This document shows positions 15,270 to 18,867 of a DNA stretch of 64,000 nt, in pieces. Within the stretch, counting starts at the first letter, position 1. Each line of letters begins with the position of its first letter. Made by a program: the position numbers and the translations under genes. The notes under the pieces were generated by a model. That model did not search any database, was not told where the DNA came from, and was given only the letters and a program-made list of their open reading frames with translations. Where the stretch lies: NCBI RefSeq assembly GCF_016918765.2, contig NZ_CP092104.1:1364001-1428000 (forward strand), read 5' to 3'. The stretch is from Flagellatimonas centrodinii. Its GTDB lineage: Bacteria > Pseudomonadota > Gammaproteobacteria > Nevskiales > Nevskiaceae.

Positions 15270-15476
15270 TCAACGTCGATTCTGATATCGGTCCAACTCG
15301 TCAGGGTCATACCCCTGATCCATCAGCACCATTTCGTCGAGATCGAAGTTGAACTTCAGGACCCGCTCCAAGGTGCGACGGGCGATGCGATCAAACCAGG
15401 TCTGGTTGCGCGACGCTTTTTTGGCTAGTGCAAAGCCGATCTTTGCCAGCACGACGCGGACAAAGTAGGGCTTCAT
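15270..15476 (-). CDS. Small protein translationally coupled to the Mo/W enzyme gene
   Basis: Protein of 68 aa, MKPYFVRVVLAKIG... The ATG overlaps the stop of the upstream molybdopterin enzyme gene (15473-15476). It has a basic amphipathic N-terminal half (about residues 1-35) and an acidic tail (DLDEMVLMDQGYDPDELD). It has no cysteine, so it is not a ferredoxin-like partner. Not recognised; a dedicated assembly factor or small subunit is plausible from the coupling. Confidence 0.65.
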   Translation of the reverse strand: MKPYFVRVVLAKIGFALAKKASRNQTWFDRIARRTLERVLKFNFDLDEMVLMDQGYDPDELDRYQNRR

Positions 15477-17749
15477 TGCGGTGTCCCGCTCAGCTTGTTG
15501 ATACGGCAGGGCAGTCCCTTCAAGTGCGGAATACCTTGTTCAAGGTCGATGAAATCGTCATCGTCCGGACACAGCATGGCGTCGGCGTAACGCAGGGCGC
15601 CGGACAGCTTGCCCAGTCCCTGCTCAGTTTCCGGCTTCCACCAACCATGGGGAATGCGAACCAGCCCATCGGGCATGTTGGGACGAACGCCGACCATGAT
15701 CTCGATTTTTCCGGTGCGGGTTTCGACCTCGACCCACTCGTTTTCATCGAGGTGATACTGCCGCGCGGTGCCGGGACTGATGAACAACACCGGTTCGGGT
15801 TTGCGCGCGCGCATCTCGGGAATGTGCCTTCCTCCGGTCTGGAAATACTCGCCCTCGCGCACGCCGGTGAACATGGCCAGAGGGAAGGCCGGGTCGGCTG
15901 GCGGCTCGTCACGAAAGTACGGCAGCGGATCAAAGCCCAGGCCTTCGAGGATGGATGAGTGCAGTTCCACCTTGCCGCTGGGTGTGGCGAAGCCGGTCTT
16001 TTCGTATTTGCGGAATTCAAGCGTATCGGCGTGGACCTCGTACGTGCTGGAGAATTCTTCAAAGCCGATCTCAAGCTTGGCGATGCGGTAATCGTAAAAA
16101 TCTTCCAGTGTTTCCCACGGAACGACATCGGGCATGCCGAGTGCGTTGGCGGTGAGCTTCCACAGCTCAAAGGTGCTCTTGCATTCGCCCGGTGGTTCCA
16201 TCGATTTCTGCGACGGCTTGTAGATTGACAGCCAGCCGTAGCCATCAAACATCCACGGCCGCTCCAGCCATGAGTCGCCGGGCAACACGTAATCGGCTAG
16301 TTGCGCGGTCGGCGTCATGACGTGCTCCTGGACCACGATCAGGTCCTGATTGAGCATGGCCTTCATGATCAGCGGCATGTTGGCGAAGCCCATCAGCGTG
16401 TTGTTGCCGAACGAGAACAGCGCCTTCACCGGGTACGGCCCTTCGCCCGCCATGGCGCGGAACACGGCCGAGGGGTTGGCCATAAAGCACCCGGTGACCT
16501 GGTTCGCGTACTCGTGGCCCCAGACGCGCTTGCAAGGTTCGCGCAGGGCCGCCTGCCCGCGATAGGTGAACGCGGGATGTTTGTCGGAACCAAGCTGCTT
16601 GGATTTCTGCTCCTCGGACAGAACATGGTGCATCTCGATTTCCGACTCCGAGACAATCTGCGGGTGAAAGCCCATCAGGGCTTCGCCGCCTGGCACGTCG
16701 ATATAGCCGCATACCGCGCGCAAGATGCTTTGCAGGCGAATGGCCGAAGTGCTGTTGCGCTGCTGGTCGGTGATGGGCGTCCATGGAATCACTGACGGCC
16801 CCAGCGTGGCGTACATGCGCGCAGCCTTGGCGATCATCTCGGCATCGCAGCCAGTGATCGCCGCCACACGCTCCAGTGGGAATTCGTCGACACGCTTTTT
16901 TAGGGCCTCGAATCCCACCGTCCAACGCTCGACAAAGGCCTTGTCGTAAAGCTCCTCGTCAAGAATCACCTTGAGCCAACCGAAGGCCATTGCCGCATCT
17001 GTACCTGCCCTGATTGGCAGCCACAAATCGGCCATTTCAGCGCATTCGCTTTTGCGTGGGTCGAGCACAATCAACGTGCCACCGCGCGCCTTCACTCGTT
17101 GTATCTGATTGTAGATAGGCACCCAGCTGTTCTTGCCGGGGTTGTGCCCGAACAGCACGATGAGATTGGTGTTGTCGTAGTCCGGCCATGGGTACCAGCC
17201 GTAGGTCAGCCGATTGATCGCGGCCGTGTTCCCGGCGCAGAGCGCGACGCCGCTGATCCAATTCGGTGAGCCGACGTGATTCATGATTCGCCGACCCAAC
17301 CCATGATCGGTACCGGTGTTCCATTGGCTGGTCGAGACAGCCCACGCTTCCGGGCCGAACTCGGCGATGATCTTCTTCAGCCGTTGACCGATGTCCGCCA
17401 TGGCCTCTTCCCAGCTCACCCGCTGCCACTTTCCAGATCCGCGCTCACCGACCCGCTTCTGCGGGTAAAGCACACGGTCGGGGTTGGCGAAGTTTTTCGG
17501 CGCGACGATGCCCTTGATGCAGATGTTGTCCTTGAACAGGGGATTGTCGGAGGAGCGCACACGGGTGACGCGCCCCTTCTGGATTTCGGTGACCACGCTG
17601 CACGCGATATCGCAGCTTGCACACAGGGCTTTGCGGGTTTCGACCCCCGGCCGCTGATGCGGTCTCGGAATGCTGCGGCTGCCTGCCGCACTGGGACCAA
17701 CAGATGGAACTCCGGGCACTGATGCGCTCCTATGGAATGACGGCGTCAT
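15473..17749 (-). CDS. Molybdopterin (Mo/W) enzyme, acetylene-hydratase-like
   Basis: DMSO-reductase-superfamily protein of 758 aa from the ATG at 17749; a TTG at 17791 is an alternative. [4Fe-4S] ligands are C43, C46, C50 and C77 in CASCDIAC...NICIKG. Asp47 directly follows the second Cys and C171 (VALCAGNTAA) is the likely metal ligand. Recalling acetylene hydratase of Pelobacter acetylenicus (Cys12-Asp13, W-ligand Cys141, Trp179, Trp293), the spacing here is the same: W209 is 38 and W323 is 152 residues after C171. Other shared blocks include NHVGSPNWISG and MTPTAQLADYVLPGDSWLERP. There is no Tat motif and no adjacent ferredoxin or membrane-anchor gene, which suits a soluble non-redox enzyme. 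Residues near the active site differ (Ala172, Trp143), so the substrate may not be acetylene. Confidence 0.8.
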   Translation of the reverse strand: MTPSFHRSASVPGVPSVGPSAAGSRSIPRPHQRPGVETRKALCASCDIACSVVTEIQKGRVTRVRSSDNPLFKDNICIKGIVAPKNFANPDRVLYPQKRVGERGSGKWQRVSWEEAMADIGQRLKKIIAEFGPEAWAVSTSQWNTGTDHGLGRRIMNHVGSPNWISGVALCAGNTAAINRLTYGWYPWPDYDNTNLIVLFGHNPGKNSWVPIYNQIQRVKARGGTLIVLDPRKSECAEMADLWLPIRAGTDAAMAFGWLKVILDEELYDKAFVERWTVGFEALKKRVDEFPLERVAAITGCDAEMIAKAARMYATLGPSVIPWTPITDQQRNSTSAIRLQSILRAVCGYIDVPGGEALMGFHPQIVSESEIEMHHVLSEEQKSKQLGSDKHPAFTYRGQAALREPCKRVWGHEYANQVTGCFMANPSAVFRAMAGEGPYPVKALFSFGNNTLMGFANMPLIMKAMLNQDLIVVQEHVMTPTAQLADYVLPGDSWLERPWMFDGYGWLSIYKPSQKSMEPPGECKSTFELWKLTANALGMPDVVPWETLEDFYDYRIAKLEIGFEEFSSTYEVHADTLEFRKYEKTGFATPSGKVELHSSILEGLGFDPLPYFRDEPPADPAFPLAMFTGVREGEYFQTGGRHIPEMRARKPEPVLFISPGTARQYHLDENEWVEVETRTGKIEIMVGVRPNMPDGLVRIPHGWWKPETEQGLGKLSGALRYADAMLCPDDDDFIDLEQGIPHLKGLPCRINKLSGTPQ

Positions 17750-17805: not shown

Positions 17806-17817
17806 GTGTATATACAC
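17806..17817. promoter_or_regulatory. Perfect 12-bp palindrome, probable MarR operator
   Basis: GTGTATATACAC is fully self-complementary. It lies in the AT-rich 72-bp gap between the divergent Mo/W enzyme and marR genes, ending 4 bp before the marR ATG. Position and symmetry fit a MarR-type autoregulatory operator, and the TATA-rich core may also serve as a -10 element. Confidence 0.6.
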
Positions 17818-17821
17818 TCAT

Positions 17822-18373
17822 ATGACTGCCAAGCGCTACCACCTGCCTTTTCTGGAAGAAGTTCGGAGCCAACGCCACGTATGCTTCGCAGAGCAGTTGC
17901 GCTCGGCTAATCGCGCGGTCTCGAAGCTTTACACGCAGCACCTCGGCGACTCGGACATCGGTGTCACCCAACTGTCGCTACTGATCCGTCTCTACTATTT
18001 CGGCGAGATCACCATGTCAAAACTGGCGCAGCAACTGGAAACTGACCGCACCACCCTGGCGCGAAACGTTCAGCTGCTGGAGCGCAGTGGCCACCTCTGC
18101 ATCGTTAGCGCTGACGACCGCAGATCGCGGCTGGTGCGCTTGACCGACAAGGGCTTCGAATCCTTGCAACTCACAATTCCCCGCTGGCTGGACGCCCAAA
18201 ACGATCTTCGCTCGCGCTTAGGGCACGACCCTTGGGGCGCACTGTTTGCCGGTCTACGAGGGCTCGTGACACTTGGGAACGAAATAGAGCAGTCGCACGG
18301 GGCTGGTCGGGCGCGCAGCATCCGAGAGAAGCCCAAGACTGGAGGCTCAACTACCCGCCAACCCGCCAAATAG
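17822..18373 (+). CDS. MarR-family transcriptional regulator
   Basis: Protein of 183 aa. Winged-helix core: VTQLSLLIRLYYFGEITMSKLAQ, then the recognition-helix region QLETDRTTLARNVQLLERSGH and the wing SADDRRSRLVRLTDKG (about residues 45-115). A longer, basic and probably disordered C-terminal tail follows (from about 155). It is divergent from the acetylene-hydratase-like gene, so it is the probable ligand-responsive repressor of that operon. The base composition is less GC-rich than the surrounding core genes. Confidence 0.88.
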   Translation: MTAKRYHLPFLEEVRSQRHVCFAEQLRSANRAVSKLYTQHLGDSDIGVTQLSLLIRLYYFGEITMSKLAQQLETDRTTLARNVQLLERSGHLCIVSADDRRSRLVRLTDKGFESLQLTIPRWLDAQNDLRSRLGHDPWGALFAGLRGLVTLGNEIEQSHGAGRARSIREKPKTGGSTTRQPAK

Positions 18374-18465: not shown

Positions 18466-18867
18466 TCAATGGCTTGGCGACATGACAAGCGGTCTCGAAC
18501 GCCTGGATTGTTCTCGAAACTTGGCCGGTGTTTGATCAAACCACCTCGTGCAGCTTCGGTGGAAGACGGCGAGATCCGAGTAGCCCAGGCTGTGGGCTAT
18601 CCGCGCGAGCGGAATGCTTGTTTCCACGAGATATTCCTGAGCAAGCGTTTTTCGCGTTGCATCCCGAAGCGCCTCGAAACTCGTTCCAAGTGCCTTGAGT
18701 TTTCGCTGCATGGTGCGGGGGTTCAGCCGCAGCGCTGCGGCTGCGGCGGAAATGTCGACGGTACGAAAGCGCATGAGCTGAGGCAGCAGCTCTAAGAGTT
18801 GCTGATCAATCGGCAAGTCGTGCGGCGGCGCCGTGCCATGCAGGTATTGCTCAATCCTTGAGAAACG
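18466..18867 (-). pseudogene. AraC-family regulator, C-terminal remnant
   Basis: The open frame from an in-frame stop at 18868-18870 gives FSRIEQYLHGTAPPHDLPID, then RFRTVDISAAAAALRLNPRT, LARIAHSLGYSDLAVFHRS and the WFDQTPAKFREQ terminus: the linker and both helix-turn-helix motifs of an arabinose-binding-domain AraC regulator. The N-terminal sensing domain (roughly 200 residues) is missing. An internal ATG at 18816 could start a 116-aa protein with the DNA-binding domain alone. The fragment begins 2 bp past the tRNA 3'-end repeat. Confidence 0.8.

Follow-up and report, generated by a model that had tools for sequence, protein, structure and literature searches.

From the features of the open reading frame located on the minus strand at nucleotides 15473-17749 of the 64,000-nucleotide stretch analysed here (the window), we propose that it encodes a cytoplasmic, single-subunit alkyne hydratase whose pocket has been remodelled to take a small alkyne, and that the gene is under MarR control. 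Taken as a whole we consider this to be the best explanation, with a probability of roughly two in three. The gene begins with an ATG at 17749 and ends with a stop codon at 15473, specifying a protein of 758 amino acids; it is a real open reading frame, and its strand had been left unstated in the preliminary description. The protein possesses Molybdopterin and Molydop_binding Pfam domains, while no NCBIfam model reached its cut-off, the best being formate dehydrogenase alpha (TIGR01591) with 261 bits against a curated cut-off of 666. The gene is under purifying selection (dN/dS of about 0.03 against L004 and 0.12 against L005). A 99% identical protein is present in a Polycyclovorans sp. MAG and a 95% identical one in a genome of the same genus (G402), which is taken as that of P. 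algicola TG408, a strictly aerobic degrader of hydrocarbons that lives in association with phytoplankton.

A phmmer search against all PDB sequences revealed as top match the acetylene hydratase (AHy) of Pelobacter (Syntrophotalea) acetylenicus (2e7z), with an E-value of 6.5e-201, 673 bits and 45% identity, in an alignment that is nearly full length (residues 42-746; query numbered +1). The runners-up were thiosulphate/polysulphide reductase (198 bits) and formate dehydrogenase H (176 bits), and on these scores the similarity to 2e7z is far in excess of chance. The catalytic subunits of formate dehydrogenase and polysulphide reductase share the MopB fold, bis-MGD and a [4Fe-4S] cluster, but score below 200 bits in phmmer, versus 673 for AHy, and work with partner subunits. 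The predicted structure, which has a moderate mean pLDDT of 70.9 and is weak around the active site, was again closest to 2e7z, both by Foldseek (TM 0.86, with formate dehydrogenase H second at 0.68) and by VIA-align (Z 38.5, rmsd 2.6 over 699 residues; next chain Z 33.0). The acetylene-hydratase-like character put forward in the preliminary description is therefore upheld by sequence and by fold.

In a phylogenetic analysis of 48 proteins (LG+C20 PMSF), the 25 that have Asp at position 13 (AHy numbering) were all separated from the remainder by a branch supported at 100/100. Every protein that combines Asp13, Trp179 and Trp293 falls on this side, AHy included; the other side holds the proteins resembling formate dehydrogenase or catechol dehydroxylase and other MopB proteins. 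The first branch within this Asp13-type clade is a molybdopterin protein (L027, WP_120661552.1) from plasmid pRop44186_a of Rhodococcus opacus DSM 44186, an aerobic host which we take to grow on acetylene; L027 is 40% identical to the query. AHy pairs with two proteins of the actinobacterial sample (94/90). Opposite AHy (94/88) stands the query group, made up of the deeper L036, L042 and L054, then L038, and then 17 close homologues (100/99). From this position with AHy, the protein belongs to the acetylene-hydratase subfamily of the MopB/DMSOR proteins by descent, and together with its catalytic core we regard this membership as very probable. Placement in a redox clade had been named beforehand as the outcome that would overturn the assignment; the protein falls within the Asp13-type clade instead.

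The branch adjoining this clade contains L025, L067, L058 and L066, of which L025 and L067 are long branches, so that the exact sister order is less sure. The genomes of L067, L058 and L066 hold 33 and 108 MopB candidates, and from this genome character, rather than from a named reference sequence, we regard these proteins as catechol-dehydroxylase types of an Eggerthella-like kind. In keeping with this, the catechol dehydroxylases, such as those of Eggerthella and Gordonibacter, have been reported as the closest characterised group to acetylene hydratase (PMC7028382). Such kinship and the sister branch itself would suit a redox enzyme of another kind, for example a reductive catechol dehydroxylase; the characterised dehydroxylases are redox enzymes. 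We consider this improbable: the Eggerthella-type proteins sit outside the Asp13 clade and lack Asp13 and Trp179, the query is about 31% identical to them but 45% identical to AHy, and neither a partner subunit nor a Tat signal accompanies it.

The clade to which the query belongs comprises more than 20 aerobic Gamma- and Alphaproteobacteria. Proteins of Zavarzinia, Henriciella and Sphingomonadaceae are interspersed with gammaproteobacterial ones in the tree, and the gene is patchily present (8/85 in the order; 6/398 in a phylum sample at E 1e-60), which together point to horizontal transfer.

Besides fold and length, the protein shares with AHy the residues of the catalytic core, all of them encoded on the minus strand. 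The stretch C43-x2-C46-D47-I48-x-C50 (17600-17623) carries three cluster cysteines and the catalytic Asp, and is followed by the fourth cluster cysteine, C77, and by K79 (17513-17521). In the alignment C43, C46, C50 and C77 correspond to AHy C9, C12, C16 and C46, D47 to D13, I48 to Ile14, and K79 to Lys48, which lies between cluster and metal. The metal ligand C171 (AHy Cys141), invariant in the acetylene-hydratase clade, is encoded with A172 at 17234-17239, W209 (Trp179) at 17123-17125 and W323 (Trp293) at 16781-16783. Trp179 is found in the alignment only in the Asp13-type clade, and proteins of less than 40% identity have neither D13 nor W179. The preliminary description had listed Asp47 beside Cys46, Cys171, Trp209 and Trp323; each is present and aligned with its AHy counterpart, and the distances that it gave from Cys171 (+38 and +152) are exact. 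Results for the exchange of Asp13 to Ala and to Glu in AHy have been published (PMC12096430).

The substrate ring is conserved in part. Three positions are kept (I48, W209 and W323) and three are changed, namely W143 (17321-17323) at Ile113, A172 at Ile142 and Y504 (16238-16240) at Trp472, where the local alignment is less certain; the full ring of AHy, which we take to be Ile14, Ile113, Ile142, Trp179, Trp293 and Trp472, is therefore not present. The first two changes had been noticed previously at Trp143 and Ala172, the third had been missed; Trp506 lies near Tyr504, and a conserved Trp two residues on is found in most members. Where the region is present, the query clade keeps the cluster cysteines, Asp13, Ile14, Lys48, Cys141, Trp179 and Trp293. 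Ile113 is replaced by Trp and Ile142 by Ala in all of its more than 20 proteins, as far as they cover these positions, and Trp472 by Tyr, Phe or other residues, Tyr or Phe being found in most. The invariance of the Trp143/Ala172 exchange marks it as a fixed trait and not drift, and lends weight to the earlier caution that another small unsaturated compound may be hydrated. Since L036 combines Trp113 with Leu142, Trp113 probably arose before Ala142. The ring varies in other members of the Asp13 clade too, indicating that it bears on the substrate and not on the subfamily. Mutational work by tenBrink in 2011 reportedly showed that Ile142, which is Ala in the query, matters for catalysis in AHy.

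Hydratase action is likely, and we judge the substrate to be acetylene or a slightly larger alkyne, the two being about equally likely as the natural one. Were acetylene the natural substrate, the ring would have been repacked in a compensated manner around an acetylene-sized pocket. The opposite changes in volume brought about by I113W and I142A would allow this, and in the tree the query is bracketed by the P. acetylenicus enzyme and the R. opacus plasmid protein, R. opacus being a reported aerobic acetylenotroph with a Mo-dependent enzyme (PMC7858054). Against it, L027 retains an AHy-like ring (Ile, Ile, Leu, Trp, Trp, Trp), whereas the query clade is changed at 3/6 positions, and the published account of Polycyclovorans makes no mention of growth on acetylene; we regard a true acetylene hydratase as possible, though short of probable. 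L027 is further distinguished by its neighbours, which are ferritin-like, FdxA and MoeZ genes.

A larger unsaturated substrate (propyne, 1-butyne, longer alkynes or an activated alkene), with the enzyme serving mainly to remove alkynes that inactivate monooxygenases, is equally tentative. The loss of bulk from Ile142 to Ala and Trp472 to Tyr/Phe favours it, as do the hydrocarbon-degrading genera, Polycyclovorans included, to which several hosts belong, the xenobiotic-type MarR/HxlR regulators of a one-gene unit, and the inhibition of monooxygenases by 1-alkynes (PMC10667655, PMC7170481); the change of Ile113 to Trp, which brings extra bulk, does not. On the residues as aligned, the opposite changes in bulk are compatible both with a repacking of the acetylene pocket and with a change in its shape. 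To one specific version we would give rather less than an even chance: in aerobic bacteria that degrade hydrocarbons, the clade would act as an alkyne hydratase dependent on Mo or W, with a natural substrate larger than acetylene (propyne to acetone, for example) and its own alkyne-sensing MarR or HxlR repressor.

For the small-alkyne hydratase that we prefer, the following course may be envisaged. One [4Fe-4S] cluster would be bound by C43, C46, C50 and C77, and one W or Mo ion would be held by two MGD cofactors and Cys171. Asp47 would activate a water molecule bound to, or near, the metal, which would add across the triple bond, and the resulting enol would become an aldehyde or ketone with no net redox change. 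The altered ring positions (W143, A172, Y504) point to a pocket for a small alkyne, not necessarily acetylene. Probably a dedicated MarR repressor keeps the gene off until the substrate or a related compound releases it, and the product would enter normal metabolism. Perhaps the gene is thereby induced for assimilation, as a supply of carbon, or for detoxification, protecting monooxygenases from inactivation by the alkyne.

This MarR gene and its palindrome are new here, both having been overlooked in the preliminary description, and a MarR gene adjoining the enzyme gene, like the strictly aerobic genus of origin, sets the query apart from AHy. The regulator (183 amino acids; 17822-18373, plus strand; Pfam MarR_2, E 6.9e-08) is divergently encoded, and a MarR gene adjoins the orthologous gene in L004-L010 and L014. 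The 72-bp intergenic region contains a perfect palindrome, GTGTATATACAC (17806-17817), which ends 4 bp short of the MarR start. There is no other copy in the window, where 0.01 would be expected if one mismatch is allowed, or in the rest of the 3.6-Mb genome. The remaining MarR-type loci have the palindrome in the corresponding position, L010 with a single change. From this arrangement it is the probable operator of the MarR protein. An additional copy in L007 is placed where the ends of two genes converge and points to no further target. In L011, L012, L013, L017, L018 and L023, which are members of the sister subgroup, a different palindrome takes this place, the best match to AGTCCA-N5-TGGACT being situated just upstream of the gene; an HxlR-type gene diverges in L011, L012, L013, L017 and L018 and, as L075 shows, at the L023 locus too. 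In L024 the divergent gene is of the TetR type. No pathway neighbours are conserved across the clade, the divergent regulator alone recurring, and the presence of three regulator families (MarR, HxlR and TetR) in the same post argues for an inducible one-gene function.

A single acetylene hydratase, from a strict anaerobe, has been characterised in detail, and the aerobic enzymes are without a characterised protein (PMC7858054; PMC12096430). The present, well-defined clade occurs in culturable aerobes, including P. algicola TG408 and named strains of Zavarzinia and Solimonas, and provides testable enzymes. Its pocket is by nature of the I142A type, and its regulators, with their probable operators, are candidates for repressors that respond to alkynes; this bears on what sets specificity in a non-redox enzyme and on what becomes of alkynes in oxic water. 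If the substrate is larger than acetylene, the non-redox hydratase reaction of the superfamily would have a second natural substrate. We know of no enzyme of the subclade that has been assayed.

The 758 amino acid protein contains no Tat motif, hydrophobic N-terminal segment or membrane segment. The neighbouring genes scanned specify a photolyase-related protein, an unknown 260 amino acid protein, the MarR protein, an AraC-type HTH fragment, a LysR protein and an SDR; none is an iron-sulphur or membrane partner, and no aldehyde dehydrogenase adjoins the gene in the window. The absence of a Tat signal and of an electron-transfer subunit, remarked upon previously, is thus borne out for the N-terminus and for these neighbours, and is a further likeness to AHy, itself a single subunit. 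The AraC-type fragment (18466-18816, minus strand), an open reading frame of 116 amino acids with the DNA-binding domain only and an in-frame stop shortly upstream, is probably all that is left of a full-length AraC regulator.

The genome encodes MobA, detected above the cut-off, as well as a MopB protein resembling nitrate reductase and formate dehydrogenase (L001), from which it follows that bis-MGD can be made; no match to ModA or WtpA was found in it. A second MopB enzyme of this genome (L003, 703-2955, minus strand) has Asp at the metal-ligand position and groups with proteins of Thermoleophilaceae and Mycolicibacterium (L020, L021), reaching no curated family cut-off.

Among the loci of relatives, L070 has the family member L036 beside moaA, moaE and a moeB-like gene. 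In G686 two paralogues, L042 and L038, with 54% and 63% identity to the query, belong to one catabolic-looking cluster of about 17 kb (L069; G686:C141:131000-150900). This cluster includes HxlR and MarR genes, an ActP-like acetate symporter, an aldehyde dehydrogenase, an acyl-CoA synthetase, an enoyl-CoA hydratase and an SDR. An aldehyde product would be in keeping with the dehydrogenase and the symporter, and the CoA enzymes hint at larger substrates.

Genes of the fatty acid desaturase family (L005 6526-7551, L006 6488-7390, L007 6270-7304) were considered as partners and rejected, being near the MarR gene in these three loci alone and in both orientations. Two genes near L007, one Baeyer-Villiger monooxygenase-like and the other for an acyl-CoA synthetase, were likewise set aside, as they are not shared by other loci. 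Plasmid-borne MopB proteins of Rhizobium and Caballeronia (L028 8001-10082, L029 8001-10085), about 33% identical to AHy, have Tyr or Phe at the Asp13 position and are encoded beside ferredoxin and FAD/NAD(P)-binding genes.
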